A stretch of 64,000 nucleotides of DNA from Acidiphilium acidophilum (GTDB lineage: Bacteria; Pseudomonadota; Alphaproteobacteria; Acetobacterales; Acetobacteraceae), in the NCBI RefSeq assembly GCF_033842475.1, contig NZ_JAWXYB010000018.1, forward strand, positions 3,269,501-3,333,500, written 5' to 3'. Below, piece after piece: positions 33,111 to 62,253 of the stretch. Made by a program: the position numbers and the translations under genes. Numbering within the stretch: the first letter of the stretch is position 1; every line of letters begins with the position of its first letter. The notes under the pieces are model-generated. The model searched no databases. It worked only from the letters and a program-made list of their open reading frames with translations, and had not been told where the DNA came from.

Positions 33111-33225
33111 CTTCTTTTTTGTAAAAAAGAAGCAAAAAACTTTTATTCCCTGGGGCAAGGGCGCTTAAACCGGCACGAACCCAATTAACAAAGTTTTTTT
33201 GCTTCTTTTTGTTCACAAAAAGAAG
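33111..33225 (-). repeat. Double-palindrome AT-rich element, copy 1
   Basis: A left palindrome with a TTTTTTGTAAAAAA centre, a CAAAAAACTTTT tract, about 45 bases of spacer, then AAAGTTTTTTTG and a right palindrome with a TTTTTGTTCACAAAAA centre. The right arm is the reverse complement of the left arm of copies 3-6, so this copy is inverted relative to them. It fills the gap between the convergent epimerase and FNT genes, ending two bases before the FNT stop. Confidence 0.9.
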
Positions 33226-33227
33226 TC

Positions 33228-34124
33228 TTACCCTTCCCTTACCGTACCTCCCTCGGCCTTCCGCCCACCCCGCTCATCGATCCCATCCTGAATTTCCTCC
33301 GCCACCGTGCCGTGGTTGAGCAGCGCGACCAGCGCCACCCCGCCCACGATGTTCCCCAGCAGGGTCGGGGCCAGAAATCCAGTCAGATATTGTCCGAACG
33401 AAGCGGTCCCGGTCAGCACGGCGTAGGCCGCTTCCGCCGATCCCGCGACGATGTGGGACAGTTTCGCGATAGCGACAACATAGGTGATCAGCAGCACCGT
33501 CAGCAACCGCGCCGAGCGCGCGCTCGGCAAAATCCACACCATCAGCGCGATCAGCCAGCCCGCGAACATCGCCCTGATAAAGGTCGCCGCGAACGCGTCA
33601 TGGATCGCCTCGCGCGCAATCACCCCGAGCGAGTCAACCACCGCATCCGAAAACACGCCATGAACCAGCAGCAGCGCGGCGAACGCCCAAGTTCCCACCA
33701 GATTCATCACCAGCACGATCGCCCATAACCGCCCGACCGCCAGCGCCGTCTCGCCGTTGCGCCGCGTCAGCAGCGGCAGAATCGCGGTCAGCGTGCTTTC
33801 GGTGAATAATTGCTGCCGCCCGAGCACGGCGATGATGAATCCGACGCTGTAGCCGAAACTCGCGATCAGATGCCGCCATTTGCTCGCCGGCAGATCCGCG
33901 CGGATCAACGCCTCGGTCAGAAACGAAAACCCCATCGACAATCCGGCGGCAAACCCCGAAAGCGTCAGCGCCCCATTCGACCTCTCGAGTTCGTCCTCGC
34001 CCTCCTCGCGGATGATCTCATGGATCACCAGCGGCCTCAGCCCGGAATGCTGCGCCGCCTGCGACTGTTCGCCCTCATCGAGATGCGGCGAGTCCGATCC
34101 CGCCGCCTTGCCATCCTCGTCCAT
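33228..34124 (-). CDS. Formate/nitrite transporter (FNT) family channel
   Basis: A 298-residue protein with a soluble N-terminal segment of about 60 residues, then six helices. Family hallmarks are LSGFAAGLSMGFSFLTEALI, GRQQLFTESTLTAILPLL and NLVGTWAFAALL. FNT channels conduct formate, nitrite, hydrosulfide or lactate. The long charged N-terminus resembles the YfdC subgroup, whose substrate is unknown. The start at 34124 has a GGGAG site six bases upstream; an ATG at 34136 is an alternative. Confidence 0.88.
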   Translation of the reverse strand: MDEDGKAAGSDSPHLDEGEQSQAAQHSGLRPLVIHEIIREEGEDELERSNGALTLSGFAAGLSMGFSFLTEALIRADLPASKWRHLIASFGYSVGFIIAVLGRQQLFTESTLTAILPLLTRRNGETALAVGRLWAIVLVMNLVGTWAFAALLLVHGVFSDAVVDSLGVIAREAIHDAFAATFIRAMFAGWLIALMVWILPSARSARLLTVLLITYVVAIAKLSHIVAGSAEAAYAVLTGTASFGQYLTGFLAPTLLGNIVGGVALVALLNHGTVAEEIQDGIDERGGRKAEGGTVREG

Positions 34125-34189
34125 TCCGACTCCCATGCACGTTGTCCGCACATGATGATCGCGCCCGGTCAAGAGAAGACGAGACAGCA

Positions 34190-34305
34190 CTGCTTTTTTG
34201 AAAAAAAGCAGCAAAAAACTCTTTTCAATCTGGTCTGCGGCTGTGGAACCGGCACCGCCCCGCGAATAGACGTTTTTTTGCTTCTTTTTTTACAAAAAAA
34301 ACAGC
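34190..34305. repeat. Double-palindrome AT-rich element, diverged copy 2
   Basis: The left palindrome is CTGCTTTTTTG-AAAAAAAGCAG, followed by CAAAAAACTC. After about 55 bases come GTTTTTTTG and a right arm with a TTTTTTTTACAAAAAAAA centre ending in CAGC. Both outer arms show matching CTTC to CTGC changes on one side. It lies between tandem minus-strand genes (FNT and pyrophosphatase). Confidence 0.8.
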
Positions 34306-34312
34306 GCTTCCC

Positions 34313-34834
34313 TCACTTCACCCGCGCCAAACTCTCCGCAATCGCCGCCTCGGCCGCCGCGCGTCCTTCCCAGCCGGTCACCTTCACCCATTTGCCCTTT
34401 TCCAGATCCTTGTAATGGGTGAAAAAATGTTCGATCGCATCGCGCGTGATCGCCGGCAGTTCCGAAACCTCGGTCACGCCGCTCCATTGCGGATGGATCT
34501 TGTCGTGCGGCACGCAAACGATCTTCTCGTCCATCCCCGCCTCGTCCTCCATCCGCAACACCCCGATCGGCCGCGCCCGGATCACCGCCCCCGGTACCAC
34601 CCCCGCCGGCGTCAGCACCAGCGCATCCGCCGGATCGCCGTCATCCGCCAGCGTTCCCGGAATGAACCCGTAAGCCGCCGGATACGCCATCGGCGTGAAC
34701 AGAAACCGGTCGACCATGATCGCCCCGCTTTCCTTGTCTACCTCATACTTCACCGCCGACCCCTGCGGGATCTCGATCACCACATGAATATCCGAAGGCG
34801 GCGCCTTGCCGGCTGAAAGCTTGCTCAGATCCAT
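34313..34834 (-). CDS. ppa: Inorganic pyrophosphatase
   Basis: A 173-residue family I soluble pyrophosphatase. The signature DGDPADALV (metal-binding Asp triad) is present, along with [33 protein letters not shown] and the C-terminal [14 protein letters not shown]. It hydrolyses PPi from biosynthetic reactions in the cytoplasm. The start [12 protein letters not shown] is canonical, and the upstream extension to 34912 is unlikely. Confidence 0.97.
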
Positions 34835-34925
34835 AAAAAATCTCCCGAAAAATCCTGCCCCGCCTTCTAGCCGCCGCACCGCATATTGCCAATCATGCCC
34901 GGCACTGGCCATACAGGCCCCGTGT

Positions 34926-35002
34926 GCGCCGGTAGCTCAACTGGTCAGAGCGGACCGCTCATAACGGTTTGGTTGCGGGTTCAAGTCCTGCCCGGCGCAC
35001 CA
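34926..35002 (+). tRNA. tRNA with CAT anticodon (elongator Met or Ile2)
   Basis: A 77-base cloverleaf. The acceptor is GCGCCGG/CCGGCGC, the D-loop is AGCTCAACTGGTCAGAGC, the anticodon arm is GACCG-CTCATAA-CGGTT and the T-arm is GCGGGTTCAAGTCCTGC. CCA is encoded. The G1-C72 pair excludes initiator tRNA. CAT could be elongator methionine or the lysidine-modified isoleucine tRNA; the sequence alone does not decide. Confidence 0.95.
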
Positions 35003-35156
35003 GGTCACCACCCCACCCGGACCCGCCCCGCTCAGAAAATTCTGGCGGGGCTTGCCTTTTCATTCTATAATTCGAATAAGCTCGCCAATCCGTGTCCGGC
35101 CCCACAGGCCGGCCATGACGACGAGAAAAAAGCTGCCGATAGTGGAGAGAACCGAC

Positions 35157-36020
35157 ATGCGTGCGCAAAACCCGTTCTTCTGGCCGTTCCAGATGGTCTT
35201 CAGCGGCTTTTCCTCGGTCGGAAAATCAGCCGACCAAACCTATTGGGACAGCGCCGCCGTCGCGCGCACCACCCCGGTCATCCAGCGCATCACCTATAGC
35301 GACCTGTTCGCCGTCCTGTCCGAAGGCGCGCAGGATTTCGCCAAAACCCGCGCCGATGCCATCCTCCTGGTCTTCATCCTGCCGATCATCGGCGTCGCCG
35401 CCATCGTCGCCGCCAGCGGCCCCGGCTATGCCGACCTGCTGTTTCCCCTCCTGTCCGGCTTCGTCCTGGTCAGCCCGATCGCCGCGTTCGGCTTCTACGA
35501 AATGAGCCGCCGCCTCGAGACCGATCAGCGCGCCGGCTGGACCGATGCGCTCGGCGTCCTCACCTCGCCCGCCATCGGCACCATCGCCCTGCTCAGCCTG
35601 ACCCTGATCTCCATCTTCATCCTCTGGATAGGTGCCGCCCATTTCCTGTTCGTCGCCTTCTCCGGCAAACAGCACCCGATCAGCCTCGGCGTCATGCTGG
35701 TCCACATCCTGACCCATCTGCGCGGTTGGGGCCTCATCATCAGCGGCTTCGCGGTCGGCTTCGTCTTCGCCGTCATCGTCCTCGCCCTCAGCGTGGTCTC
35801 CTTCCCGATGGTGCTCGATCGTCCCGAAGGCTTCGTCGGCGCCATCGGCACCTCGCTCAAGGCCTTCGCCTTCAATGTCGGCCCGCTGCTCGCCTGGGGC
35901 CTGATCGTCTCGCTCGGCCTGTTCGTCGGCGTCGCCTTCGCCCTGGTCGGCCTCGTGGTCGTCCTGCCCATCCTCAGCCACGCCACCTGGCACCTCTACC
36001 GCCGCCTCGTCCATTACTGA
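35157..36020 (+). CDS. DUF2189 family membrane protein
   Basis: A 287-residue integral membrane protein with about six helices. The N-terminal RITYSDLFAVLSEGAQDFAKT and the LLSGFVLVSPIAAFGFYEMS segment, with VSFPMVLDRP and ATSLKAF-like GTSLKAFAFN, are typical of DUF2189. Members are often encoded near cytochrome oxidase genes, as here, but their role is unknown. The ATG at 35157 follows a GGAGAG site; an earlier in-frame start at 35052 overlaps the region after the tRNA and is not favoured. Confidence 0.8.
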   Translation: MRAQNPFFWPFQMVFSGFSSVGKSADQTYWDSAAVARTTPVIQRITYSDLFAVLSEGAQDFAKTRADAILLVFILPIIGVAAIVAASGPGYADLLFPLLSGFVLVSPIAAFGFYEMSRRLETDQRAGWTDALGVLTSPAIGTIALLSLTLISIFILWIGAAHFLFVAFSGKQHPISLGVMLVHILTHLRGWGLIISGFAVGFVFAVIVLALSVVSFPMVLDRPEGFVGAIGTSLKAFAFNVGPLLAWGLIVSLGLFVGVAFALVGLVVVLPILSHATWHLYRRLVHY

Positions 36021-36288
36021 CACCCCACAGCGGCGCACCACCCATCCAACGCGCAGGGGAGCGCCGCCTCGCGGGAACTTGATCCCGAATCCGCCCGGCA
36101 AACCGGAACATCATCGTAATATCCCGGCCATAATGGCAGGCGAGGCAAAAACACCTCTTGCCTCGCCGTTACGGTTGATATATTCCAATTCAATAATGCG
36201 TGTTCTAAGCTAAATTCGTAACTGTTGCCGAACAACTCCATAAAACAACATCGTCGGGGACGCCCCATGATCTGCAAGGTGACGCTGG

Positions 36289-37149
36289 ATGACTGATCAC
36301 ACACTTCCCGATGCCGATGCGCATCATTACGGCCCGGCCACGGTCACCAGCCCGTTCACCCCGGTCGGCCTCAGCCCCTGGCCGCTCGCCATCGCTGTCT
36401 CCGCCATGGTCACCGCCGGCGGCGTGATCGCCTATACCTTCCACGAAGGCATCACCCTGCTCGCGGTCGGCCTGCTGATGTTCCTCGCCTCCATCGCCCT
36501 CTGGGCGCGCGATGCCCTGAACGACGGCCCCAACCTCATCAAAGCCGGCATCATCCCCCAAATCAGCTTCCGCTACGGCGTCACCCTGTTCATCGTCGCC
36601 GAGCTCATGCTGTTCGTCGCCTTCTTCTGGGGCTATTTCAACTTCTTCTTCTTCCCCGCGAAAATGGGCATCGGCCACGTCGCCGTCTGGCCGCCCGCCC
36701 ATATCCACACCATCAACCCGCTCGGCGAACCCCTGTTCGCTACCCTGGTCATGCTCCTCTCCAGCACCACCCTGACCGGCGCGTTCGACGGCATCCTGCA
36801 AGGCAACCGCACCAACGCCGCCCTCGGCATGGCCGCCACCACCCTCCTCGCCATCGTCTTCCTGCTCGGCCAGATCTGGGAATTCGCGAACCTGCCCTTC
36901 CCGGTCTACCACGGCGGCATCTACCCCTCGCTCTTCCTCATCCTCACCAGCTTCGACATGCTGCACGTGATCATGGGCGTCATCCTGCTCGCCATGGCCA
37001 CCATCCGCATCATGCGCGGCGCCTTCACCCCCGAGCGCTACGCCGGCTTCCAGACCATCGCCTGGTACTGGAACTTCGTCGACGTGCTGTGGCTGTTCAT
37101 GTTCGTGTCCGTTTACTGGATCGGCGCCAGCGCCGTGACCGCAGGCTGA
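36289..37149 (+). CDS. ctaE: Cytochrome c oxidase subunit III
   Basis: A 286-residue protein with seven helices. The motifs IAELMLF-like IVAELMLFVAFFWGYF, FATLVMLLSSTTLTGA, YHGGIYPSLFLILTSFDMLH and AWYWNFVDVLWLFMFVSVYW are characteristic of the COX3 core, including the conserved Glu of the proton-related site. The ribosome-binding site AAGGTGA is seven bases from the ATG. It precedes subunit I by 27 bases, an inverted order relative to the usual ctaC-ctaD-...-ctaE operon. Confidence 0.93.
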   Translation: MTDHTLPDADAHHYGPATVTSPFTPVGLSPWPLAIAVSAMVTAGGVIAYTFHEGITLLAVGLLMFLASIALWARDALNDGPNLIKAGIIPQISFRYGVTLFIVAELMLFVAFFWGYFNFFFFPAKMGIGHVAVWPPAHIHTINPLGEPLFATLVMLLSSTTLTGAFDGILQGNRTNAALGMAATTLLAIVFLLGQIWEFANLPFPVYHGGIYPSLFLILTSFDMLHVIMGVILLAMATIRIMRGAFTPERYAGFQTIAWYWNFVDVLWLFMFVSVYWIGASAVTAG

Positions 37150-37176
37150 CCCGTTTGACCCTCCGGAGACCAATCA

Positions 37177-38793
37177 ATGTCCGATAACACCTTCCAGGCG
37201 GCCCACGGCCACGCCGTGTCCGACCATCACCACCACACCGACCGGAAATCCTTCCTCGGCCGCTGGTTCCTCAGCACCAACCACAAGGATATCGGCACCC
37301 TCTACATGGTGTGGGCGCTGGTCGCCGGCATCGAAGGCGGCGTGCTCTCCTTCATCATGCGCGCCCAGCTCGCCGAACCCGGCAACACCGTCGTCGCCAA
37401 CGGTCAGGCCTGGAACGCCATCGTCACCGCCCACGGCCTCCTCATGATCTTCTTCCTGGTCATGCCCGCCCTGATCGGCGGCTTTGGCAACTGGATGGTC
37501 CCGATCATGATCGGCGCGCCGGACATGGCCTTCCCGCGCCTGAACAACATGAGCTTCTGGTTCCTGGTCATGGGCTTCTTCTTCGTCAACCTCGGCCTGC
37601 TGGTCGGCCCCGGCGCCGGTATCGGCTGGTCGCTCTACCCGCCCCTGTCCGATGCCCAGTACCAGCCCGGCCCCGCGGTCGACTTCACCCTGATGGGCCT
37701 CCAGCTCGCCGGCGTCTCCTCCCTCGCGGGCGCGGTCAACTTCATCGTCACCATCCTGAACATGCGCGCCCCCGGCATGAACATGTTCAAAATGCCCCTG
37801 TTCGTCTGGGCCATGCTGGTCACCTCCTTCATGCTCATGATGGCGGTCCCCGTCCTCTCGGGCGCCATCACCATGCTCACCATGGACCGCAGCTTCGGCA
37901 CCTCCTTCTTCGAACCCGCCGGCGGCGGCGACCCGGTCCTGTTCCAGCACCTGTTCTGGTTCTTCGGCCACCCCGAAGTCTACATCATGATCCTGCCCGC
38001 CTTCGGCATCATGAACCAGGTCATCCCCACCTTCTCGCGCAAACCCATCTTCGGCTACGCCGGCATGGTCTACGCCACCTGCGCCATCGGCTTCGTCGGC
38101 TTCCTGGTCTGGGGCCACCACATGTTCGTCTCCGGCATCAGCCACGACAGCAAAGCCTATTTCGAAGCCGCCACCCTGGTCATCGCAGTCCCGACCGGCG
38201 TTAAAATCTTCACCTGGATCGCAACGATGTGGGGCGGCTCGATCGACTTCAAAGTCCCGATGCTCTGGGCCTTCGGCTTCATCTTCATGTTCACCGTCGG
38301 CGGCGCCACCGGCGTCGTGCTCGCCAATGCCGGCCTCGATACCGACCTGCACAACACCTACTTCCTGATCGCCCACTTCCACTACGTGCTCTCGATGGGC
38401 GCCACCTTCGCCCTCTTCGCCGGCTTCTACTACTGGATCGGCAAAATGTCGGGCAAACCCTACCCGGAATTCTGGGGCAAAGTGCACTTCTGGACCTTCT
38501 TCATCGGCACCAACCTCACCTTCTTCCCCCAACACTTCCTCGGCCTCGCCGGCATGCCCCGCCGCTACCCGGACTACCCGACCGCCTTCGCCGGCTGGAA
38601 CTTCGTCTCCTCGGTCGGCGCCGCAGTCGATGCCCTCAGCATGCTGATCTTCTTCTACGTCATCGTGCGCATCTTCACCTCCAAGGAAGTCCTCGCCGAC
38701 AATTACTGGGGCGAAGGCGCCACCTCCCTCGAATGGATGATCCCCTCCCCGGCCCCCGAACACACCTTCTCGGAAATCCCGGTCATCCGCTGA
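37177..38793 (+). CDS. ctaD: Cytochrome c oxidase subunit I (A1-type haem-copper oxidase)
   Basis: A 538-residue catalytic subunit. Haem a and a3 and CuB ligands are visible in [36 protein letters not shown] (His-Tyr pair and the D-channel Glu), [10 protein letters not shown] and [10 protein letters not shown]. The D-channel entry Asp/Asn ([11 protein letters not shown]) and the K-channel Lys (PTGVKIFTW) are kept, so it is an A1-type proton pump. The His-rich N-terminus ([13 protein letters not shown]) is distinctive. No subunit II, haem-A or Cox11 gene is present in the window, so those parts must be encoded elsewhere. Confidence 0.96.
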
Positions 38794-38820
38794 GTCTCCC
38801 TACAACTCGGCCGACAAAGC

Positions 38821-38854
38821 CCCCTCCGCACGTCTGTGCGGAGGGGTTTTTTTT
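38821..38854 (+). terminator. Rho-independent terminator of the oxidase operon
   Basis: A perfect 11-bp GC-rich stem (CCCCTCCGCAC / GTGCGGAGGGG) with a GTCT loop is followed by eight T. It lies 28 bases after the ctaD stop. Confidence 0.95.
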
Positions 38855-38887
38855 GCCTCACTTGCGAAGGTGGCAGGGGAGTCAAGA

Positions 38888-39003
38888 CTTCTTTTTGTGA
38901 ACAAAAAGAAGCAAAAAAACTTCGCTCCTGTAGGACTGCGCCTTTGAAACCCCCCATGCCCCAGATCAAAAAAGTTTTTTGCTTCTTTTTTACAAAAAAG
39001 AAG
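38888..39003 (+). repeat. Double-palindrome AT-rich element, copy 3
   Basis: 116 bp. The left arm centre is TTTTTGTGAACAAAAA, then CAAAAAAACTT, a small TCC-TGTA-GGA hairpin, the conserved CATGCCCCAGATCAAAAAAG tract, and a right arm centred on TTTTTTACAAAAAA. It follows the ctaD terminator directly and is tandem with copy 4, 51 bases away. Confidence 0.93.
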
Positions 39004-39054
39004 CCCTTCCTTCCCTGCAATCCTCACCCCATCCCGCGCATAATCCAGCCAGCA

Positions 39055-39170
39055 CTTCTTTTTGTGAACAAAAAGAAGCAAAAAAACTTCGCTCCCGCAG
39101 GACTGCGCCTTCGAAACCCCCCATGCCCCAGATCAAAAAAGTTTTTTGCTTCTTTTTTACAAAAAAGAAG
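39055..39170 (+). repeat. Double-palindrome AT-rich element, copy 4
   Basis: Nearly identical in sequence and length to copy 3, differing at only a few internal positions (for example the mini-hairpin is TCC-CGCA-GGA, which keeps the pairing). It is a tandem direct repeat of copy 3 and lies upstream of the ABC permease gene. Confidence 0.93.
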
Positions 39171-39266
39171 CCCTTCCTTCCCGAACCGCCCCTCCCCAGC
39201 GCACCGCCACTCCACGCCGGCGCATTATTCTTGCATCGCAGCATGGCATGCGCGACAATCGGAATA

Positions 39267-40115
39267 ATGCCGAATTCCGATCAGGTCAGTGCGCAGCCTC
39301 CCCTCATCGAAGTGGACCCCCTCGCCGCCCGCGAGGTGCGCGGCACCTGGCATCATGTATCGCGTTTCACCACCCTGATTGCGGTCATCATCGCCCTGAT
39401 CCTGTGGCAGGCCGCGAGTGTCCTTCATATTTTCCCCCCGATTGCCTTGCCCTCACCGGTCGCGGTGTGGCGTGCCTTCATCCGGCTGCTGCTGCACGGT
39501 TATGGCGGCAATTCCCTGTTCGACGATATCTGGGTCAGTTCCGCCCGCATCGCGGTCGGTTTCGTCGCCGCGATCGTCCTCGGCGTGCCGATCGGCCTGC
39601 TGATGGCCCGCAACGCCTTCACCTTCCGCCTGATCGATCCGTTCCTGCAATTCGCCCGCCCCGTGCCGCCGCTGGCTTATATTCCGCTGCTGGTGGTCTG
39701 GTTCGGCATCGGTGAACTGCCGAAAATCCTGCTGATCCTGTTCGGCACCATTCCGGTCATCATCATCGGCACCATCTCCGGCGTCAAAGCCACCCCCGCC
39801 CTGCGCATCTCGGTCGCGAAAACCCTCGGCGCCACCGAAAGCCAGATCTTCCGCCACGTCATCCTGCCCTCCGCTCTGCCCGAAATCTTCACCGCCATGC
39901 GCGTCGGCATCGGCGTCGCCTGGACCTGTCTGGTCGCCGCCGAACTCATCGCAGCCGATAAAGGCCTCGGCTGGCTGGTCCAATATGCCGGTCAGGCCCT
40001 GCAGGTCGCCATCGTCATCGTCGGCATCATCGTCATCGGCCTGCTCGGCTACGCGATGGAACTGATCATCCGCCTGCTCGAACGCCGCGCCGTCCCCTGG
40101 CGCGGCCACAACTGA
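39267..40115 (+). CDS. ABC transporter permease, TauC/SsuC family
   Basis: A 282-residue inner-membrane permease with six helices. Typical parts are FPPIALPSPVAVWRAFIRLL, SARIAVGFVAAIVLGVPIGLLMA, and the ATPase-contacting EAA-like loop AKTLGATESQIFRHVILPSALPEIFTAMRVGIG. It belongs with sulfonate, nitrate, taurine or thiamine-precursor importers. The ATG at 39267 is favoured; another ATG lies eight codons upstream. A matching binding protein follows 17 bases downstream. The substrate could be a sulfonate, nitrate or pyrimidine precursor. Confidence 0.9.
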   Translation: MPNSDQVSAQPPLIEVDPLAAREVRGTWHHVSRFTTLIAVIIALILWQAASVLHIFPPIALPSPVAVWRAFIRLLLHGYGGNSLFDDIWVSSARIAVGFVAAIVLGVPIGLLMARNAFTFRLIDPFLQFARPVPPLAYIPLLVVWFGIGELPKILLILFGTIPVIIIGTISGVKATPALRISVAKTLGATESQIFRHVILPSALPEIFTAMRVGIGVAWTCLVAAELIAADKGLGWLVQYAGQALQVAIVIVGIIVIGLLGYAMELIIRLLERRAVPWRGHN

Positions 40116-40132
40116 CCCAACCGGAGCCCCCG

Positions 40133-41140
40133 ATGCGCAAAACCGCCCTCGCCGCCCTGATCCTCTCCACCGTCATCACCACCGTCACCACCACCCCGGC
40201 CTGGGCCAAACCCAGCGTCGTCATCGGCTACGAAAACAACGGCGCCGATCCGTGGATGGTCAGCCAGGCCCAACATCTGTTCCAGAAAACCATGCCCGCC
40301 AACGTCCAGCTCAAATTCTTCGATTCCGGCCCCGCCGCCATGAGCGCCCTCGCCTCGAACTCCCTGCAATTCATGTGCGGCCTCGGCGTGCCGCCCTTCG
40401 TCGCCGCCATCTCCCAGGGCGTCCCCCTCGGCATCATCTTCAATCAGGAACGCTACACCAGCGCCGCCGGCATCGTCGTCCGCCCCGGCGGCGGCATCAA
40501 AACCATCGCCGACCTCAAGGGCAAAAAAATCGCCATCGTCGAAGGCTCCCAATCCTCCTTCGAACTCGCCACCTTCCTCGCCGAAGCCCACATCCCCTTC
40601 AGCGCCGTCCACCAGCTCAACATGTCGCCGCCCGAAATGCGCGTCGCCTGGACCACCAAAAGCATCGACGCCGCCATCGTCTGGGACCCGGTATTCGACG
40701 CGCTGCACAGCATGGGCGGCAAAATCCTGAAAACCGACGCCGACCTCCCGCCCGACGCCTCCTCCTACAATATCTGCATCGCCGACACGCAATGGGCCAA
40801 AACCCACCCCAAACTGGTCACCGACTTCATTCGCGCCCTCGACCAGGGCGTCACCTTCACCCGCACCCACCCCCACCAGGCCCTCGCCCTCATGGCCAAA
40901 CAAGCCGGCATCACCATAGCCACCGCCAAAACCGAACTCGCCGGCTACCAGATCTTCTCCGCCAAAGACCAGACCACACCCCACGTCCTCGGCACACCCA
41001 AAACCGTCGCCACCTCGGCCACCACCAAAACCATCGAAAACACCGCCAAAACCCTCCTCAAAATCGGCCGCATCGACAAACTGCCCCCCCATCCCGCCAA
41101 CGCCGTGCTGCCGCAATATGCCGAAACCGCAGCACACTGA
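40133..41140 (+). CDS. ABC transporter periplasmic binding protein, TauA/SsuA-like
   Basis: A 335-residue protein with a signal peptide (MRKTALAALILSTVITTVTT then TPAWA). The fold motifs are VVIGYENNGADPWMVS, FDSGPAAMSALASNSLQFMC, LGIIFNQERYTSAAGIVVRP and DLKGKKIAIVEGSQSSF, as in taurine/alkanesulfonate binding proteins. It captures the ligand in the periplasm for the adjacent permease. Taurine is plausible from the GPAAMSAL region but not proven. The ATPase gene follows only after two repeat elements, a 325-base interruption. Confidence 0.88.
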   Translation: MRKTALAALILSTVITTVTTTPAWAKPSVVIGYENNGADPWMVSQAQHLFQKTMPANVQLKFFDSGPAAMSALASNSLQFMCGLGVPPFVAAISQGVPLGIIFNQERYTSAAGIVVRPGGGIKTIADLKGKKIAIVEGSQSSFELATFLAEAHIPFSAVHQLNMSPPEMRVAWTTKSIDAAIVWDPVFDALHSMGGKILKTDADLPPDASSYNICIADTQWAKTHPKLVTDFIRALDQGVTFTRTHPHQALALMAKQAGITIATAKTELAGYQIFSAKDQTTPHVLGTPKTVATSATTKTIENTAKTLLKIGRIDKLPPHPANAVLPQYAETAAH

Positions 41141-41162
41141 AATGAGGTCGGGGAAGTCTAGA

Positions 41163-41278
41163 CTTCTTTTTGTGAACAAAAAGAAGCAAAAAAACTTTGC
41201 TCCCTTGGGACTGCGCCGTTGAACACGCCCATGCCCCGGATCAAAAAAGTTTTTTGCTTCTTTTTTACAAAAAAGAAG
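41163..41278 (+). repeat. Double-palindrome AT-rich element, copy 5
   Basis: Same orientation and layout as copies 3 and 4: left arm centre TTTTTGTGAACAAAAA, mini-hairpin TCCC-TT-GGGA, conserved ATGCCCCGGATCAAAAAAG, right arm centre TTTTTTACAAAAAA. It starts 23 bases after the stop of the binding-protein gene, inside an ABC gene set. Confidence 0.93.
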
Positions 41279-41335
41279 CCCTTCCTTTTCTTCCAACAGC
41301 ACGATGCAGCGATATGAGGGCAAGACAGGGTAAGA

Positions 41336-41451
41336 CTTCTTTTTGTGAACAAAAAAAAGCAAAAAAACTTTGTTCCTTTGGGACTGTGCTGTTGAATACG
41401 CCCGTGCCCCGGATAAGGAAGGTTTTTTGCTTCTTTTTTACAAAAAAGAAG
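41336..41451 (+). repeat. Double-palindrome AT-rich element, copy 6
   Basis: Tandem direct repeat of copy 5, with more changes: left arm ACAAAAAAAAG loses one pair and the AAAAAAG tract before the right arm reads GGATAAGGAAGG. It ends 15 bases before the ATPase start codon. Confidence 0.9.
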
Positions 41452-41465
41452 TCCTTGCCTTTCTG

Positions 41466-42194
41466 ATGCCCATCACCCTCACCCGCGTCACCCGCGATTT
41501 CGCCTCCATTCGCGCCCTCGACGACATCAATCTCACCATCGAGGATGGCACGTTCCTGACCATTCTCGGCGCGTCCGGCTGCGGCAAATCGACATTGCTG
41601 AACCTCATTGCCGGGCTCGATGCGCCGAGTTCGGGCCGTCTTGCCATCGATGGTGTGCCGATCGCCAAGCCCGGCCCCGATCGTGTCGTGGTCTTCCAGC
41701 AACCCGGCCTGTATCCGTGGCTAACCTTGCGCGACAACATCGCCTTCGGCCAGCGCATGCGCGGCAGCATCGACTGGCCCCGCATCGACGAGGTCATCGG
41801 CATCATGGGTCTCGGCGGTTTCGAATCCCATCGCCCGTACGAACTTTCCGGCGGCATGCAGCAGCGTGCCGCCCTCGCCCGTGCCTTGGTGATGAACCCG
41901 AAGGTGCTACTGATGGACGAACCGTTCGCCGCGCTCGATGCCCAGACCCGTCACCGCATGCAGGCGTTTCTGCTCGAACTGTGGGACAAGATCGGCGCCA
42001 CCATCATCTTCATCACCCACGATATCGACGAGGCGATCATATTGGGCGATCGTCTGGTCGTCATGCAGGCCCGCCCCGGCCGCATCGCGATCGATCAGCC
42101 GATTCCCCTCGCCCGCCCCCGAAGCTGGGACATGACGCTGGAGCCCGACTTTCTCCATCTCAAGCGCAGGGTCATGTCGGTTCTGGCAGCGTAG
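41466..42194 (+). CDS. ABC transporter ATP-binding protein, TauB/SsuB family
   Basis: A 242-residue ATPase. Walker A is LGASGCGKSTLLNLIAGL, the Q-loop is VVVFQQPGLYPWLTLRDNI, the signature is YELSGGMQQRAALARAL, Walker B is VLLMDEPFAALDAQTR and the switch His is FITHDIDEAI. It energises the upstream permease. The ribosome-binding region falls in the right arm of repeat copy 6, so its translation may depend on folding of that repeat. Its 3' end overlaps the convergent MFS gene by 23 bases. Confidence 0.92.
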   Translation: MPITLTRVTRDFASIRALDDINLTIEDGTFLTILGASGCGKSTLLNLIAGLDAPSSGRLAIDGVPIAKPGPDRVVVFQQPGLYPWLTLRDNIAFGQRMRGSIDWPRIDEVIGIMGLGGFESHRPYELSGGMQQRAALARALVMNPKVLLMDEPFAALDAQTRHRMQAFLLELWDKIGATIIFITHDIDEAIILGDRLVVMQARPGRIAIDQPIPLARPRSWDMTLEPDFLHLKRRVMSVLAA

Positions 42195-43329
42195 TCCCGA
42201 CCTCATCGTCCATTCGCCCGGCCGGCTGGCGGCGCATCACCACCACTAGCGCAATGACGAACAGCGTCACCAGCATGGCGAACACCCCGGAATACCCCAG
42301 CCGCGCCATTGCGGCGGCGGCGATCAGCGGCCCGGTGCACGCGCCCGAAGCCCAGGCGAACAGCACCCCCGAACTCACCCCGAGCAATTGCTCCTGCGCC
42401 GCCCGGTCGGCGGTCAACCCCACGCCGAGCCCATAGAGCACCCCCGCCGTCGCGCCATACACCGCACCAAACGCCGCGAACCAGACCAGACCATGACTGA
42501 CGAACAACCCCGCGCACGCCGCCACCGCCACCGCGAGCACCAGCCGCACGATCACCACCCGCCGAATCCGGTCCGCCAGCATCCCCACCGGAAACTGCAT
42601 CGCCATCCCCGCGAGCAGGCTCAGCGACACTGCAACCGAAACCCCGTCCTGCCTGATCCCGGCGCGTTCCATCACTACCGGAAACATCGAGAAAAACATC
42701 CCGCTCGACATTCCGGCGGTAAAGCAGGTCACCACCCCGGCAGGCGAGAGCGCCCATAAATCCCGCAGCGACAGCCGCGCCCGCGCCGGCAGCGCCGGCC
42801 CTACCCTCGTCAATATCGTGGTCGGCAGCAACGCGGTCAGAAACGCCGCCACCCCGAGGCTCAGCAGCGACCCGGCGGACTTGAACAGCGAGAGCGAGGA
42901 CGCCCCCAACACGCTGCCGGTCCAGCTTGCGAACATGTAAAACCCGAACACCCGCCCCCGCACCCCGCGCCGCGCCGTGGCATTGAGCCAGCTTTCCACC
43001 ACGGTGAACACGCCGATGCTGCACATCCCGACGACGAAGCGGATGCCGATCCACGGCACCACCGATCCCACCCCGCGCGTCAGCAGCGTCGCATCCGCCG
43101 CCACCACGCAGAAAATCACCAGCGCCCGGATATGCCCGATCCGCATCAGCACCCACGGCACCACCAGGCTGCCCACCAGCGTCCCGCCATAATAGGCCGA
43201 CGCCACGATCCCGATCGCGAAGGTCGCAATCCCGTGGGAAAGCAGCAAAATCGGGGTCAGCGGCGTCAGCAGCCCCAGCGCGATCTGGGCGAACAGCACG
43301 GTCGCGTAGAGCGGCGCATATTTTATCAT
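42172..43329 (-). CDS. MFS transporter, YcaD-like
   Basis: A 385-residue, 12-helix protein. The N-terminal YAPLYATVLFAQIALGLLTP, the GIVASAYYGGTLVGSLVVP segment and VVESWLNATARRGVRGRVFG, with the ESWLN motif after helix 4-5, fit the YcaD/UMF-like major facilitators of unknown substrate. It converges on and overlaps the 3' end of the ABC ATPase gene. Divergent from it lies repeat copy 7 and then the peptide ABC operon. Confidence 0.8.
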   Translation of the reverse strand: MIKYAPLYATVLFAQIALGLLTPLTPILLLSHGIATFAIGIVASAYYGGTLVGSLVVPWVLMRIGHIRALVIFCVVAADATLLTRGVGSVVPWIGIRFVVGMCSIGVFTVVESWLNATARRGVRGRVFGFYMFASWTGSVLGASSLSLFKSAGSLLSLGVAAFLTALLPTTILTRVGPALPARARLSLRDLWALSPAGVVTCFTAGMSSGMFFSMFPVVMERAGIRQDGVSVAVSLSLLAGMAMQFPVGMLADRIRRVVIVRLVLAVAVAACAGLFVSHGLVWFAAFGAVYGATAGVLYGLGVGLTADRAAQEQLLGVSSGVLFAWASGACTGPLIAAAAMARLGYSGVFAMLVTLFVIALVVVMRRQPAGRMDDEVGTTLPEPT

Positions 43330-43503
43330 TGCAGTGAACGGACGACCCTGGCTGGAAGACCCGATTATCGCAGATCGCGCCTGCCCCCGAAAGCAGATCG
43401 ACGCCGTAGCGATATGACGAAATCAGATAGGCAAATCGCATTTTTGCGCTGGCCGGATGTTTCAGTTTGGCAGCATTGTGGTTTCCGCAGGCGAGAGGAA
43501 GCG

Positions 43504-43620
43504 CTTCTTTTTTGTAAAAAAGAAGCAAAAAACTTTTTTTGATCTGGGTCTCAAGTGGCTTAAACGCCCCAGTCCCAAAGGAACAAAGTTTTTCTGCTTC
43601 TTTTTGTTCACAAAAAGAAG
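43504..43620 (-). repeat. Double-palindrome AT-rich element, copy 7
   Basis: Orientation opposite to copies 3-6: left arm centre TTTTTTGTAAAAAA, right arm centre TTTTTGTTCACAAAAA. Its reverse complement aligns with copies 5 and 6, including CTTTGTTCCTTTGGGACTG and CCAGATCAAAAAAAGT. It lies between divergently transcribed genes, so it cannot serve merely as a terminator for either CDS. Confidence 0.92.
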
Positions 43621-43785
43621 TCTTCCCGCTTCCTGCCCGCTTTCACCCGCCCTGCACACAAATGATTTGATCTGACCGGAAAATCCCCCCACACTCGCTC
43701 CGGATCACATCACCCTGCCAAGCCGCCGGGCCCAAACCCAACCGGGTTCACGCCCAGACATGAACAAGCATCGGGAGACCAACAG

Positions 43786-49370: not shown

Positions 49371-49420
49371 AAAAAGAAGCAAAGGCAAGGCTTCTTTTTT
49401 GCAAAAAAGAAGCAAAAAAC
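49371..49420. repeat. Half-copy of the AT-rich palindromic element (copy 8)
   Basis: An AAAAAGAAGC remnant, then a complete single palindrome centred on TTTTTTGCAAAAAA followed by CAAAAAACTC. The second arm is missing. It immediately follows the stop of the fused ATPase gene, so it could act as its transcription terminator. Confidence 0.85.
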
Positions 49421-49490
49421 TCCCATGAGTCGGGCCGAACGCCGCTGAAACGACCGAGCACGAACCAAATCGCACCCGCTGCAAAATACC

Positions 49491-50695: not shown

Positions 50696-50761
50696 TTTTT
50701 ACGATCCAATCTCATTTACGAAGTTGACGTTCTTGCCATTTCTAGCCCGGCCACTCTATAA

Positions 50762-50883: not shown

Positions 50884-51144
50884 TCACCATTCACACCCTC
50901 CCCTGTCTTGCCGACCAGTTTCACACATTGGCGGGGTCGCGAGGGCGAAGCCTGCGGCCATTGAGGCGAAACATGCCTATCCGGCACGCATGGTTTCTGG
51001 TCCCGGAGGCCTGTAGTAGCCGTTCCAGCCTCCGAGGCGTGCCACGATCCAGCAAAGCCATGCGAGAGAACGGGGCGGATGAGGGTGTTGCTGGCGCCGT
51101 GTTTTGCCGTCGAGCGTCGGGGCGATAGCCTCGGCAGCCGGCAT
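50884..51144 (-). pseudogene. IS4-family transposase, C-terminal fragment
   Basis: Read on the minus strand, the frame gives GKTRRQQHPHPPRSLAWLCW, IVARLGGWNGYYRPPGPETM and RAG, a TAG stop, then ACFASMAAGFALATPP. This is the C-terminal end of Tn5/IS4-like transposases (PHPPRSLAWxxWIxARLGGW...PPGPxTM). The internal TAG falls where the family usually has Trp. The N-terminal catalytic part is missing; its left side is replaced by unrelated sequence and repeat copy 9. Confidence 0.75.
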
Positions 51145-51206
51145 CAGCGTGGCGTCGATTGAAATGTGTGAGTGCCGTGGGGGCAGCGGGAAGGAGGAAG
51201 AAAGCG

Positions 51207-51320
51207 CTTCTTTTTTGAAAAAAAGAAGCAAAAAACTTTAATTCCCTGAGTCCGTGCCAGTCGAAACGCCCATGTCCCAGATTAAAGGAAGTTTTTTGCT
51301 TCTTTTTTCCAAAAAAGAAG
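51207..51320. repeat. Double-palindrome AT-rich element, copy 9
   Basis: Left palindrome with centre TTTTTTGAAAAAAA, CAAAAAACTTT, spacer with CGAAACGCCCATGTCCCAGA then TTAAAGGAAG, TTTTTTG and a right palindrome with centre TTTTTTCCAAAAAA. It lies between the IS4 remnant and hemB. Confidence 0.9.
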
Positions 51321-51483
51321 CCTTGCTCACTTCCCTGCCCCCACCAACGCCTTCCCGCCCACCCCGGCAGCCACGCGTCTCTCGTAGCCTGAGGAATAAC
51401 GGCCGGCCAGCAGCACGGGAACCTTGCGCCTCGCCCATGTTCGCGCGATGGCGATATCAGATCCAGCGTTTCAGGAGCATCCC

Positions 51484-52476
51484 ATGATCACCGGCAGTTT
51501 CCCCACCACCCGCCTGCGCCGCAACCGGCTCGATCCGTGGACCCGCCGCATGGTCGCCGAGACCACGCTTTCGGTGGACAATCTGATCTGGCCGATCTTC
51601 GTCCGCGCGGGCGAGGGCGAGCCGACTCCGGTTGCCACCATGCCCGGCGTGGTCCGTGTCGGGCTCGACCGGCTGGCGAGGCATGTCGAGGACGCGGCCC
51701 GCCTCGGCATCCCCGCCATCGCCCTGTTCCCCGCGACCCCCGCCGACCTCAAGACCGCCGAGGGCACCGAGGCGCTGAACCCGGAAAACCTGATCTGTCA
51801 GGCCGCGCGCCTGCTCAAGGCGGAATTCCCCGATCTCGGCCTGATCGGCGATGTCGCGCTCGACCCCTACACCGATCACGGGCATGACGGCGTGCTGCGT
51901 AATGGCTACGTCGCCAACGACGAATCGGTGGAGATTCTCGAACGTCAGGCGGTCAATCAGGCCCAGGCCGGCATCGACATCATCGCCCCCTCGGACATGA
52001 TGGACGGGCGGATCGGCAGCATCCGCACCGCACTCGATGCCGAGGGGCTGATCCACACCCGCATCATGAGCTACGCCGCAAAATACGCCTCCGCCTTTTA
52101 CGGCCCGTTCCGCGAGGCGCTCGGCTCGAACGCCGCCCTCAAGGGCGACAAGAAAACCTACCAGATGAACCCGGCCAATTCGGATGAAGCCCTGCGCGAA
52201 GTCGCGATGGATCTGGATGAAGGGGCGGACATGGTCATGGTCAAGCCCGGCATGCCCTATCTCGACATCGTCCGCCGCGTCCACGAGACGTTCCACGTCC
52301 CCACCTTCGCCTATCAGGTGTCCGGCGAATACGCGATGCTGGCCTCCGCGATGAATCTCGGCCTGATCGACCGCGAACGCGGCATTCTGGAAACATTGAT
52401 GGGATTTCGCCGGGCCGGCGCTTCGGGGGTGCTGACGTATTTCGCGGTCGAAGCGGCGCGGCTGCTCAGGGCGTAA
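51484..52476 (+). CDS. hemB: Delta-aminolevulinic acid dehydratase (porphobilinogen synthase)
   Basis: A 330-residue enzyme joining two 5-aminolevulinate molecules to porphobilinogen in tetrapyrrole synthesis. The metal-binding loop reads DVALDPYTDHGHDGVL, with Asp in place of the zinc-binding Cys triad. This is the magnesium/allosteric type usual in alphaproteobacteria. Active-site Lys residues are in MSYAAKYASAFYGPFREALG and MVKPGMPYLDIV. The ATG follows an AGGAG site; the preceding 20 in-frame codons are not needed. Confidence 0.97.
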   Translation: MITGSFPTTRLRRNRLDPWTRRMVAETTLSVDNLIWPIFVRAGEGEPTPVATMPGVVRVGLDRLARHVEDAARLGIPAIALFPATPADLKTAEGTEALNPENLICQAARLLKAEFPDLGLIGDVALDPYTDHGHDGVLRNGYVANDESVEILERQAVNQAQAGIDIIAPSDMMDGRIGSIRTALDAEGLIHTRIMSYAAKYASAFYGPFREALGSNAALKGDKKTYQMNPANSDEALREVAMDLDEGADMVMVKPGMPYLDIVRRVHETFHVPTFAYQVSGEYAMLASAMNLGLIDRERGILETLMGFRRAGASGVLTYFAVEAARLLRA

Positions 52477-52491
52477 AAGGGAACACAGCGT

Positions 52492-52530
52492 CTTCTTTTT
52501 TGTGAACAAAAAAGAAGCAAAAAAACTTCG
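52492..52530. repeat. Half-copy of the AT-rich palindromic element (copy 10)
   Basis: A single palindrome with centre TTTTTTGTGAACAAAAAA followed by CAAAAAAACTTCGG, which is the left half of the copy 3/4 type. No right arm follows. It lies 16 bases after the hemB stop and could terminate hemB. Confidence 0.88.
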
Positions 52531-52582
52531 GTGATCAGGGGTGGTGCGGGTGAAGCCGCTCACGCCCCTGATCGTCGAGCCT

Positions 52583-52843
52583 TTAAATCCGGCGGCGTCC
52601 GCCGACCAGCGCGTGGTAGATCACCAGCACCACGACCGCACCGATCACGGCCACGATCAGACTATATATGTTGAACCCGGTCACCCCCACGCTGCCGAAC
52701 GCGTTGAAGATGAACCCGCCGACGATCGCGCCGATGATGCCGAGCACCATGTCGAGAATCAGCCCCTCACCCTGCTTGTTCACAAGCTTGCTGGCGATGA
52801 AACCGGCGATCAGGCCCAGAACGAGCCATGCAATGATACCCAT
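52583..52843 (-). CDS. GlsB/YeaQ/YmgE family stress-response membrane protein
   Basis: An 86-residue, three-helix protein. The pattern MGIIAWLVLGLIAGFIASKL then ILDMVLGIIGAIVGGFIFNAFG is that of the transglycosylase-associated/GlsB family, Gly-rich small membrane proteins induced by acid and general stress. Their biochemical role is unknown. The CsbD-family gene 98 bases upstream on the same strand is also a typical stress gene. Confidence 0.9.
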   Translation of the reverse strand: MGIIAWLVLGLIAGFIASKLVNKQGEGLILDMVLGIIGAIVGGFIFNAFGSVGVTGFNIYSLIVAVIGAVVVLVIYHALVGGRRRI

Positions 52844-52893
52844 GTGAAGTCACCTCTTGTTGTTTGATATGATCCCGATGCCTCGAACACGCA

Positions 52894-52916
52894 CCGGCCC
52901 CCGGCATCGGGGCCGG
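52894..52916. terminator. GC-rich hairpin between csbD-like and glsB-like genes
   Basis: A perfect 8-bp stem (CCGGCCCC / GGGGCCGG) with a 7-base loop. There is no T-tract on either side, so it would be a weak terminator, a processing site or an mRNA-stabilising hairpin. Confidence 0.4.
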
Positions 52917-60166: not shown

Positions 60167-60916
60167 TCAGCTCATCGCCATCCCGCCATTCACATGAATG
60201 ACCGAACCGGTCACCCAGGCGGCGGCATCGGAGGCCAGATAAGCGACGGCGGCAGCCACATCCTCGGGCCGCCCCAACCGTCCGAGCGGAATTTTCCCGG
60301 CCAGCGCGCCACGCTGCTCCTCGCTCAGCGCATCGGTCATCGCGGTCTCGATAAACCCCGGCGCCACCAGATTGATGGTGACATGGCGCGACGCCACCTC
60401 CTGCGCCAGCGCCTTGGTCAACCCGATCAGCCCCGCCTTGGCCGAAGCGTAATTCGCCTGGCCCGGGTTCCCGGTCGTCCCCACGATGCTGCCGATATTG
60501 ATGATCCGCCCCGACCGCCTGCGCATCATGAACTTCAGCGCCGCGCGCGAAAGCCGGAACGGCGCCGCCAGATCGACATCGAGCACCTGCGCCCACGCCT
60601 CGTCGCTCATCCGCACCGCCAGCCCGTCGCGCGTCAGCCCGGCATTGTTGACCAGAATATCCACCCGCCCCATCGCCGCCTCGGCAGCCACCACCAGCGT
60701 CTCCGCCGCCTTCGGATCGGCCAGATCGGCGGGAATCACATGCGCCCGCTCGCCCAGTTCTCCAGCCAGCGCCGCGAGCGCCGCCTCGCGCGTGCCCGAC
60801 AACGTCACAACCGCCCCGAGCCCATGCAGCGTCCGCGCGATCGCCGCCCCGATGCCGCCCGAAGCCCCGGTAATCAGCGCGGTCCGCCCCGCCAGCGAAA
60901 ACAGATCAGCCGACAT
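60167..60916 (-). CDS. fabG: 3-oxoacyl-ACP reductase
   Basis: A 249-residue short-chain dehydrogenase. The cofactor motif is ALITGASGGIGAAIARTLHG, and VNNAGLTRDGLAVRMSDEAW is typical of FabG. The catalytic Ser and Tyr-x3-Lys are in NIGSIVGTTGNPGQ and ANYASAKAGLIGLTK. It performs the NADPH-dependent reduction in fatty-acid elongation. Its start overlaps the fabD stop by 11 bases. Confidence 0.96.
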   Translation of the reverse strand: MSADLFSLAGRTALITGASGGIGAAIARTLHGLGAVVTLSGTREAALAALAGELGERAHVIPADLADPKAAETLVVAAEAAMGRVDILVNNAGLTRDGLAVRMSDEAWAQVLDVDLAAPFRLSRAALKFMMRRRSGRIINIGSIVGTTGNPGQANYASAKAGLIGLTKALAQEVASRHVTINLVAPGFIETAMTDALSEEQRGALAGKIPLGRLGRPEDVAAAVAYLASDAAAWVTGSVIHVNGGMAMS

Positions 60917-61865
60917 GTTTGATCAAAGCCTCCAACTCCGCCGGGGTGCCGCAATTCAGGGTTTCCGCCTCGGGCGCAATCCGCCGGATCAACCCGGACA
61001 ACACCTTGCCCGACCCCAGTTCGATAAACCGCGTCACGCCCGAAGCCATCATCGCCTCGACCGATTCACGCCAGCGCACCGTCGCCGTCACCTGCTCGAC
61101 CAGCCGCGCCGAAATATCCTTGGGCACCGTCACCTTCGCCGCCGTCACGTTCGCAATCACCGGCACCGCAGGCGCGCGCGGCGGGGTCACCCCCAACGCC
61201 TCCTCCATCGCGATCGCCGCCGGATGCATCAACGCGCAATGAAACGGCGCGGATACCGGCAGCTTCATCGCCCGCTTCACCCCGCGCGCCTTCGCCCCCT
61301 CGATCGCCCGATCCACCGCCGCCGCAGCACCCGAAATCACCACCTGCCCGCCGCCATTATCGTTCGCGACCGAAACCACCTCGCGCCCTTCCGGCCCGGC
61401 TTCCGCCGCCGCGCAAATCTCGACCGCCACGGCAAGCTCGACCCCGAGCAACGCCGCCATCGCCCCCTCGCCCGCCGGCACCGCCTTCTGCATCGCCGTG
61501 CCGCGAACCCGCAGCAACCGCGCCGCCTCCGCCACACTGAAACTGCCCGCCGCCGCCAGCGCGGTATACTCCCCGAGCGAATGCCCCGCGAGCAACACCG
61601 CCCGCTCGCGCACCGTCACATTGCCCTCACGCTCCAGACACCGCAAAACCGCCATCGACATCGCCATCAACGCCGGCTGGGCATTCTCGGTCAGCGTCAA
61701 CTCCTCGACCGGCCCCTCGAACATCAGCCGCGACAGCTTCTGCTTCAGAACCTCGTCAACCTCCTCGAAAACCTCACGCGCGGGCGCAAACGCGGCAGCC
61801 AAATCCCGCCCCATGCCCACAGCCTGACTGCCCTGACCCGGAAAAATGAAGGCGCTGACCGCCAT
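60906..61865 (-). CDS. fabD: Malonyl-CoA:ACP transacylase
   Basis: A 319-residue acyltransferase beginning MAVSAFIFPGQGSQAVGMGR. The nucleophile Ser is in LLAGHSLGEYTALAAAG, the His in SAPFHCALM, and the GQGSQ oxyanion motif is present. The ATG at 61865 follows AGGAGA with a seven-base spacer; the in-frame extension to 62024 runs into repeat copy 11 and is rejected. It is the first gene of the fabD-fabG-acpP-fabF-mltG operon. Confidence 0.96.
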   Translation of the reverse strand: MAVSAFIFPGQGSQAVGMGRDLAAAFAPAREVFEEVDEVLKQKLSRLMFEGPVEELTLTENAQPALMAMSMAVLRCLEREGNVTVRERAVLLAGHSLGEYTALAAAGSFSVAEAARLLRVRGTAMQKAVPAGEGAMAALLGVELAVAVEICAAAEAGPEGREVVSVANDNGGGQVVISGAAAAVDRAIEGAKARGVKRAMKLPVSAPFHCALMHPAAIAMEEALGVTPPRAPAVPVIANVTAAKVTVPKDISARLVEQVTATVRWRESVEAMMASGVTRFIELGSGKVLSGLIRRIAPEAETLNCGTPAELEALIKHVG

Positions 61866-61960
61866 GGACCCGTCTCCTGTATTTCGGCGCGACGTAGAGG
61901 CGACAGCCCGGCAAGTCAATTCCCGCCATCCGGCAAGGGGACAGGCAAGGCAGGACAAGC

Positions 61961-62077
61961 ACTTTTTTTTTGTAAAAAAGAAGCAAAAAACTTCTTTGAA
62001 CTTGGCCTCATGCCATTCCACCACCCAAGCCCAAGATTACAAAAGTTTTTTTGTTTCTTTTTTTTCAAAAAAAGAAG
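61961..62077. repeat. Double-palindrome AT-rich element, copy 11
   Basis: Left arm degenerate (ACTTTTTTTTTGTAAAAAAG then AAG), CAAAAAACTTC, spacer, AAAAGTTTTTTTG and a right arm with centre TTTTTTTTTCAAAAAAA. It is tandem with copy 12, 60 bases away, in the divergent fabD/hrpB promoter interval. Confidence 0.85.
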
Positions 62078-62136
62078 AACTTACTTCCCTTGTTATTTTC
62101 AGCACTGTCCCCCAAACCCATCATCGCAATCAAGCA

Positions 62137-62253
62137 CTTCTTTTTTGTAGAAAAGAAGCAAAAAACTTCTTTGAGCTTGGCCCCATGCCTCTCCACAGCC
62201 CCAGTCCCAGATCAAAAAAAGTTTTTTTGCTTCTTTTTTTCCAAAAAAAGAAG
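62137..62253. repeat. Double-palindrome AT-rich element, copy 12
   Basis: Left arm centre TTTTTTGTAGAAAA, CAAAAAACTTC, a spacer with CCCAGTCCCAGATCAAAAAA, then AGTTTTTTTG and a right arm with centre TTTTTTTCCAAAAAAA. The CCCAGATCAAAAAA tract is shared with copies 3, 4 and 7. It sits 69 bases upstream of the hrpB start. Confidence 0.9.

Follow-up and report, generated by a model that had tools for sequence, protein, structure and literature searches.

Why does one stretch of the Acidiphilium acidophilum genome carry, between its genes, copy after copy of a two-armed element of about 115 bases, and are these copies ordinary terminators or mobile DNA? The stretch, referred to below as the window, comprises 64,000 nucleotides (positions 3,269,501–3,333,500 of NZ_JAWXYB010000018.1, here C18, 3.64 Mb) of a 4.16-Mb genome (G000); a second strain of the species is denoted G060. 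The original prediction, made from the letters of the window, had proposed a mobile or regulatory repeat resembling miniature inverted-repeat transposable elements (MITEs) or BIMEs. Copies throughout the genome, empty sites in sister species, insertion into an operon, and copies in phages all agree with this proposal, and we consider it probable that the elements constitute a new MITE/REPIN-like family of non-autonomous mobile repeats, with hairpins that would act as a 3′-end cap or partial attenuator. So far, the family is found only in Acetobacteraceae genomes and some phage contigs.

Each full copy has one hairpin arm at each end. The left arm consists of the 4-base clamp CTTC, a T-run, a loop, an A-run, and the clamp GAAG; it is followed by C, seven A, and CTT (conserved CAAAAAAACTT), then by a variable core of about 46 bases, then by AAG, six T, and G (conserved AAGTTTTTTG), and by the right arm. 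The spacing between the inner motifs is 68–75 bases (39 copies). The flanks are purine-rich on the left and pyrimidine-rich on the right, and this bias fades over about 30 bases. Arm anatomy was parsed for 93 of the 102 copies found by a pattern search. The clamp pair CTTC/GAAG is seen in 115/186 arms, and CTAC/GTAG, located inside the stem, in 19/186. Orientation can be assigned to the asymmetric copies (53/93; 26 plus and 27 minus on the contig): in their left arm the clamp is followed by seven A and the loop is often GTGAAC, and their right arm has six A and a short loop. The other 40 cannot be oriented, 30 of them having six A on both sides. The copies of the window are as follows.

33111..33224, minus: full element between convergent genes (model E 2e-21)
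34190..34303, minus: full element, one arm of which is of the CTGC type; its neighbors are a formate/nitrite transporter gene and a gene that we take to encode a putative inorganic pyrophosphatase (E 4.7e-14)
38888..39003, plus: full element opening a tandem pair; a canonical terminator-like hairpin (38821-38846) precedes it by about 40 bases
39055..39170, plus: full element completing the pair, with 98% identity to the 38888 copy
41163..41278, plus: full element inside an operon, between ABC substrate-binding (NMT1-like) and ATPase genes
41336..41451, plus: full element, tandem partner of the 41163 copy in the same operon gap
43504..43619, minus: full element in the divergent gap between an MFS gene and an SBP_bac_5 gene, a gap without an element in the relatives G003 and G007
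49391..49421, plus: solo right-type arm (half copy), 24 bases past the stop of an open reading frame ending at 49367
51207..51320, not orientable: full element upstream of the ALAD gene, with six A at either side
52492..52528, plus: solo left-type (GTGAAC) arm without a right arm, about 15 bases past the ALAD stop codon
61962..62076, minus: full element leading a tandem pair in a divergent gap
62137..62252, minus: full element, second of the pair, 82% identical to the 61962 copy

Thus, 10 full and two half copies are present where at least nine and two had been predicted, with positions agreeing within 1–2 bases. Orientation reads as had been claimed for six of them (38888, 39055, 41163, and 41336 plus; 33111 and 43504 minus); it can be read also for 61962 and 62137 (both minus), and not for the symmetrical copy at 51207. 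A covariance model matched only these 10 full copies in the window, with E from 2.9e-22 to 4.7e-14. Since it was built from 34 copies, 8 of them from the window, these scores are partly circular; independent support comes from inverted pairs of 105–130 nt, 70–78% complementary and spanning whole elements, and from a plain BLAST search of the genome with one copy. When the 38888 copy is searched with BLAST, the three best matches other than itself are 39055, 41163, and one copy 28 kb away.

Tandem duplications of the element together with its flank are seen in the window (38888/39055, 41163/41336, 61962/62137) and at L188:9780-10160 compared with L245. Distances between neighbors below 250 bases are observed 4 times, with 0.7 expected.

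Copies in genomes and phages, and their empty sites

The count with the covariance model, which the original prediction had recommended, gives at least 103 distinct sites in G000 (best 150 of 1144 candidates, both strands), all on C18. About 15 sites are expected on the other contigs (0.52 Mb) and none is seen among the matches listed, a bias that is provisional. The second, pattern-based count gives 102 copies in 1.26 Mb, consisting of the window and 60 tiles chosen because they contain element matches. The initially described scatter over 30 kb is real as far as the copies go, but its limits were those of the view: the family is genome-wide, and the window is a local hot spot (10 full copies versus approximately 1.8 expected).

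By BLAST, 15 of 60 genomes match (G000 included), all of them Acetobacteraceae, and none of the 24 genomes from other families searched in this way does (0/24). The closest pyrophosphatase matches come from Acetobacteraceae as well. The model matches 11 of 14 chosen relatives. Copy number in Acidiphilium is patchy: there are no full-model hits in G001, G004, and G011, each with only 1–3 short, arm-sized BLAST matches, 2 in G008, 147 in G003, and 150 in G007 (both strands; best 150 candidates or fewer per genome). Among the chosen relatives, G031 also has approximately 150 hits, counted in the same way. In a second set of 24 genomes, the model matches five: Roseomonas sp. GC11 (at least 150 hits), Acetobacteraceae bog_899 (149), Acetobacteraceae KSS8 (97), Gluconacetobacter dulcium (54), and Roseomonas sp. 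KE0001 (1). No hit at E ≤ 1e-4 is seen among the best 150 candidates each in genomes of Acidocella, Acetobacter, Gluconobacter, Roseomonas rosea, R. mucosa, and R. harenae. Generally, the family has many copies in some Acidiphilium, Roseomonas, Gluconacetobacter, and other relatives, and none or scraps elsewhere. Among plasmids, one of 72,556 records matches; plasmid pACMV3 of Acidiphilium multivorum AIU301 and a G008 contig carry the element at the same coordinates. In G007:C34 1-151199, there are 26 half-element matches, only 7 pairs of which make full copies; some of the weak matches may be due to chance.

The element also enters phage late genes. Eight viral contigs (L348–L355) carry an exact match to the pattern, in four sequence contexts by eye. 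Contig L352 is a phage contig: 9 of its 10 proteins match some PHROGs family, among them families of head, baseplate, tail fibre, and tail sheath proteins. Here the element lies directly after the tail sheath gene; the related L354 (sheath 63% identical) has 12 bases at this place and carries an element before the sheath gene instead. Phages may thereby offer a vehicle for the patchy spread of the family.

Comparison of the same gaps in relatives, suggested at the outset, reveals empty sites in sister species. In the operon of permease, substrate-binding protein (SBP), and ATPase genes, the SBP–ATPase gap has 9–11 bases in G011, G005, G009, G010, and G001; it is occupied by a single element in G003 and G007 and by a pair in G000. 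The convergent ATPase/MFS gap lacks an element in G000 but has one in G003 and G007, and the divergent MFS/SBP2 gap holds one in G000 and unrelated sequence of similar length in G003 and G007. In six aligned stretches of G007 and G000, the two genomes have 6 filled gaps in common; G007 alone has an element in 3 others and G000 alone in 5, one of which retains a half copy in G007. Several of these gaps exceed 1 kb and are not clean. For the closer pair G007 and G003 (approximately 90–93% alike), all four short gaps are shared (4/4), and three more differences lie in gaps exceeding 1.5 kb and reflect rearrangement.

Within the species, 38 of 40 G060 copies lie in aligned sequence and all 38 have a counterpart in G000, one with a 24-base deletion in the right arm. 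Among alignment gaps of at least 25 bases inside aligned pieces, the sole difference in a full-length element is a tandem duplication of element and flank. Turnover, visible from species to species but not from strain to strain, is therefore slow: the element behaves like old mobile DNA, mobile in evolutionary time.

The same strain alignment shows three further features. It is split where approximately 1.2–1.7 kb, likely insertion sequences, are missing in G060; blocks around three elements (L239/L212, L261/L234, L263/L222) are far more diverged between the strains than the remainder, as if replaced by recombination; and G060 has about 500 bases adjoining an element that G000 lacks, the two sides overlapping by approximately 8 bases (L249:992-1496 versus L194:16133-16141).

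Hairpins, gene context, and probable effects on transcripts

Two mutually exclusive folds had been proposed for the element: two local hairpins, or one long stem pairing the arms. In the 3′ clamp of the 93 parsed copies, 70 bases differ from GAAG; 52 of the 70 keep the local pair, the partner having changed too, and 6 match the other arm (counted per arm, not as independent events). Therefore, the local hairpins are the fold kept across copies; the long stem is not. DNA folding parameters split between the two. Between the strains (29 of 32 pairs; 3 were set aside as diverged blocks), change amounts to 62/2030 = 3.05% in the arms, 106/1348 = 7.9% in the core, 162/1740 = 9.3% in the first 30 flanking bases, and 164/5800 = 2.8% in the next 100; the arms are conserved about as well as sequence further out, much of it coding.

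Two other pairings were considered and rejected. The TCC/GGA mini-hairpin ascribed to the core is not general, as cores pair with themselves no better than with the cores of other copies (53 oriented copies). An outer stem formed by the purine and pyrimidine flanks has a mean duplex value of −27.1, versus −28.3 for shuffled partners (standard deviation 0.6; 93 copies); pairing no better than shuffled, the flanks share only composition.

Genes were predicted with our own hexamer-based gene caller (87% coding), and none of the 102 copies lies inside a predicted gene. They occupy 31 convergent, 55 tandem, and 16 divergent gaps, versus 102, 489, and 142 among element-free gaps; in terms of odds, this is a 2.7-fold enrichment of convergent gaps (p = 7e-5), with no significant depletion of divergent ones (p = 0.42). 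The median distance is 21 bases to a stop codon versus 93 to a start. Copies in tandem gaps are nearer to the upstream stop codon in 39/54 cases (p = 0.0015), and the seven-A arm faces the upstream stop in 19/26 (19 to 7, p = 0.03), a weak orientation bias. This bias in position fits insertion tolerance as well as function.

Several results weigh against a mobile repeat with locally folded arms. No transposase was found for the element in the searches given in the next section; no new insertion is seen between the two strains, all 38 alignable copies being common; and no target-site duplication is readable at the filled and empty sites, which are too diverged. RNA folding of single copies prefers the long stem in 7/7 cases. 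In two strain pairs (L255, L262), the two arms have changed in step, as expected of template switching, and conservation of the arms could come from it rather than from selection. Finally, a scan of 33000-52900 gives 19 terminator-like sites, no regional excess over the 16.0 expected (standard deviation 3.8), yet 6 of them are located within elements or border on one, as terminators would also be.

The last point belongs to the reading of the elements as ordinary bidirectional transcription terminators, recruited at 3′ ends and inherited. It is favored also by the strong 3′-end bias, closeness to stop codons, and convergent enrichment given above, and by sites common to several species; the original doubt that terminator function alone would suffice had passed over this bias. 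We nevertheless consider this reading unlikely. The sites of the scan that lie in arms have AT-rich stems with 3 G–C pairs, and the canonical GC-rich terminator-like hairpin at 38821-38846 stands already before the 38888 copy. Terminators would be expected only at transcript 3′ ends, with no orientation bias and no empty sites, but 16/102 copies lie between divergent genes, others lie inside the ABC operon and phage tail gene clusters, the 19-to-7 bias and the empty sites exist, and full copies are absent from some congeners.

An equally improbable alternative is that the elements are functionless fossil repeats, with arms kept alike by template switching and copy-to-copy conversion. The matched arm changes of L255 and L262 agree with it, as does the homogenization of inverted-repeat arms by template switching that the available portions of PMC8604942 and PMC8794818 report; moreover, the cores change fast and half copies exist, one copy being reduced to a half in G007. 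Against it stand the 52 versus 6 of 70 arm changes that keep the local hairpin (again arms, not independent events) and the biased position and orientation of the elements relative to genes.

Under the favored reading of a mobile repeat with an effect on transcripts, the conserved hairpins suggest, from sequence comparison, an influence on the ends or stability of RNA messages, and they probably cap or attenuate transcripts. After insertion, the element would be transcribed as hairpins around an AT-rich stem; the paired arms would be barriers or partial terminators, protecting or ending the upstream message in either direction, and the upstream message would be raised relative to the downstream one, as by a partial attenuator rather than a full terminator. 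Full termination by the element is unlikely, because open ATPase and phage tail genes stand behind elements and are read the same way, and because a terminator-like hairpin already precedes the 38888 copy; given the 6 of 19 terminator-like sites at elements, some termination is possible. In Escherichia coli malE-malF, REP hairpins between binding-protein and transporter genes stabilize the upstream message.

Candidate mobilizers and related repeats

No insertion sequence with matching ends was identified in the flanks (40–1500 bases) of 93 copies, although not every pair was identified. The comparison, which covered the smaller part of the genome, yields one group of 40 flanks and one of 2; the pairs listed resemble neighboring elements and copies of a gene denoted here gene X, and beyond these no flanking gene common to several copies was identified. 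Gene X is a multi-copy family of approximately 220 residues, rich in Arg and Pro, with no Pfam or NCBIfam match; its AlphaFold model is helical (mean pLDDT 79) and has no fold match in the PDB at E ≤ 0.001. It often has a TTTCTCACCCCCC-like stretch upstream and a 3′ palindrome around CGTTACGATATCGTAACG. Its loci are as follows.

G000: L179, L198, L199, L200, L202, L204, L219
G003: L318, L320, L330
G007: L333

The elements might be satellites of gene X, which would move them or move with them. Seven G000 copies of gene X have 94–100% identity to the query, and 6 of the 7 have an arm or element 83–112 bases upstream, an association inflated by the choice of G000 tiles for containing elements. 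Element cores enclose one copy of gene X in G007 and another in G003; in two G003 copies, a stretch of 852 bases running from within an arm to the 3′ palindrome of the gene is common at 94%; and, among the matches listed, at least 7 of 35 in G003 have an element 92–97 bases downstream in the same orientation. Profile matches number 27 in G000, 35 in G003, 31 in G007, and up to 51 in G031. However, there are also 19 copies in G008 and 17 in G001, where full elements are rare, and no profile match in G012 and G030, both of which carry elements. Being abundant where elements are few, and having no match in two genomes that carry them, gene X more likely just travels along with the elements; that they are its satellites, a protein family with no recognizable domain or fold in the databases named, we regard as very unlikely.

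Least of all do we expect REPINs moved by a RAYT (Y1 tyrosine transposase), with which the layout agrees as described in the available part of PMC3116915 (two inverted hairpin units and a spacer, about 100 copies, extragenic): the Y1_Tnp profile has no match in G000, on which ground a RAYT is rejected as mobilizer here, and none in G003, G006, G012, and G015 (the five genomes having 28 to approximately 150 model hits among the best 150 candidates or fewer each), yet it is found in G002, G005, and G009, genomes without a BLAST match to the element, and G007 has one match (26.7 bits versus a cut-off of 23). With no Y1 transposase match in G000, the elements do not qualify as RAYT-driven REPINs, unless a diverged enzyme of this type is found.

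Thus, the kind of repeat is known (REPIN, MITE, SPRITE), and the family is set apart by its arms, by the lack of a RAYT in G000, and by phage carriage. It shares with REPINs, or REP doublets (PMC3116915, in part), the inverted hairpin pair around a spacer, the high copy number, and the extragenic location, but it occurs in a genome without a Y1 match and has AT-rich arms, mostly with GAAG clamps inside the stem. REPs carry a GTAG or CGTC tag at one end, and CGTC repeats are missing in Acetobacteraceae, according to the available text of PMC3733652; in our elements, CTAC/GTAG stands inside the stem of the few arms noted above and not as an end tag, and no search was made for CGTC. Like the MITEs in the available parts of PMC10969869 and PMC3049150, the element is short, patchy, and present in many copies, with inverted terminal arms and, in its 115-bp form, no transposase or other gene within; it differs so far in that no insertion sequence with matching ends was found in the flanks compared and no target-site duplication could be read at the diverged sites.

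The SPRITE, BOX, and RUP repeats of Streptococcus pneumoniae are, as far as the available part of PMC3049150 describes them, similarly short repeats with hairpins. SPRITE is terminator-like, has AAAA/TTTT ends, and is enriched near gene 3′ ends; novel insertions of all three are slow, and a target duplication of SPRITE could not be established. SPRITE belongs to another phylum and has one stem with a U-rich tract rather than two arms around a core, and empty sites and phage copies are seen for our element. Correia and ERIC-type repeats (same source, in part) are also small and affect transcripts when transcribed, a likeness by description, not by sequence; their hosts differ.

The statement that no named family has this form stands. 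Rfam gives no match to the element at the gathering cut-off in the whole window, the four arm strings are not found in the published literature searched, and, among the entries listed for literature on Acetobacteraceae or Acidiphilium repeats, none describes the element. The best sub-threshold Rfam hit in 38700-43800 (39.6 bits versus 55.8 needed, E 2.9e-5) is to a plastid psbA 3′UTR family, which we take as the resemblance of AT-rich hairpins.

Acetobacteraceae thus have a further repeat family, which occurs in several genera and also in phages, has spread without a recognized transposase, and keeps its hairpins while the rest decays. It is well suited to the study of how such repeats are moved when a RAYT is absent. 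It also raises the question of whether hairpin repeats located within operons serve to adjust stoichiometry; the ABC transporter and phage tail genes could be examples. A bolder proposal is a RAYT-free counterpart of REPINs, with the arms moved by an undescribed enzyme, possibly the gene X protein, with phages carrying the element between genera, and with hosts and phages using it to set gene levels inside operons; taken as a whole, it seems to us slightly less probable than either the terminator or the fossil reading.

Two further features were seen. A second repeat, which is GC-rich and consists of approximately 200 bases with nested hairpins (L312:3080-3300, G007:C34) has 15 copies in the G007, G003, and G000 stretches examined. 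Its outer stem is locus-specific (flank duplex mean −56 versus −34 for shuffled partners), with one perfect 19-bp stem, as if the repeat had been inserted into, or had grown from, local palindromes; one copy holds a run of N. In the window itself, apart from one tRNA, Rfam recognizes only a 6S RNA gene at 30779-30936 on the minus strand (67.1 bits).

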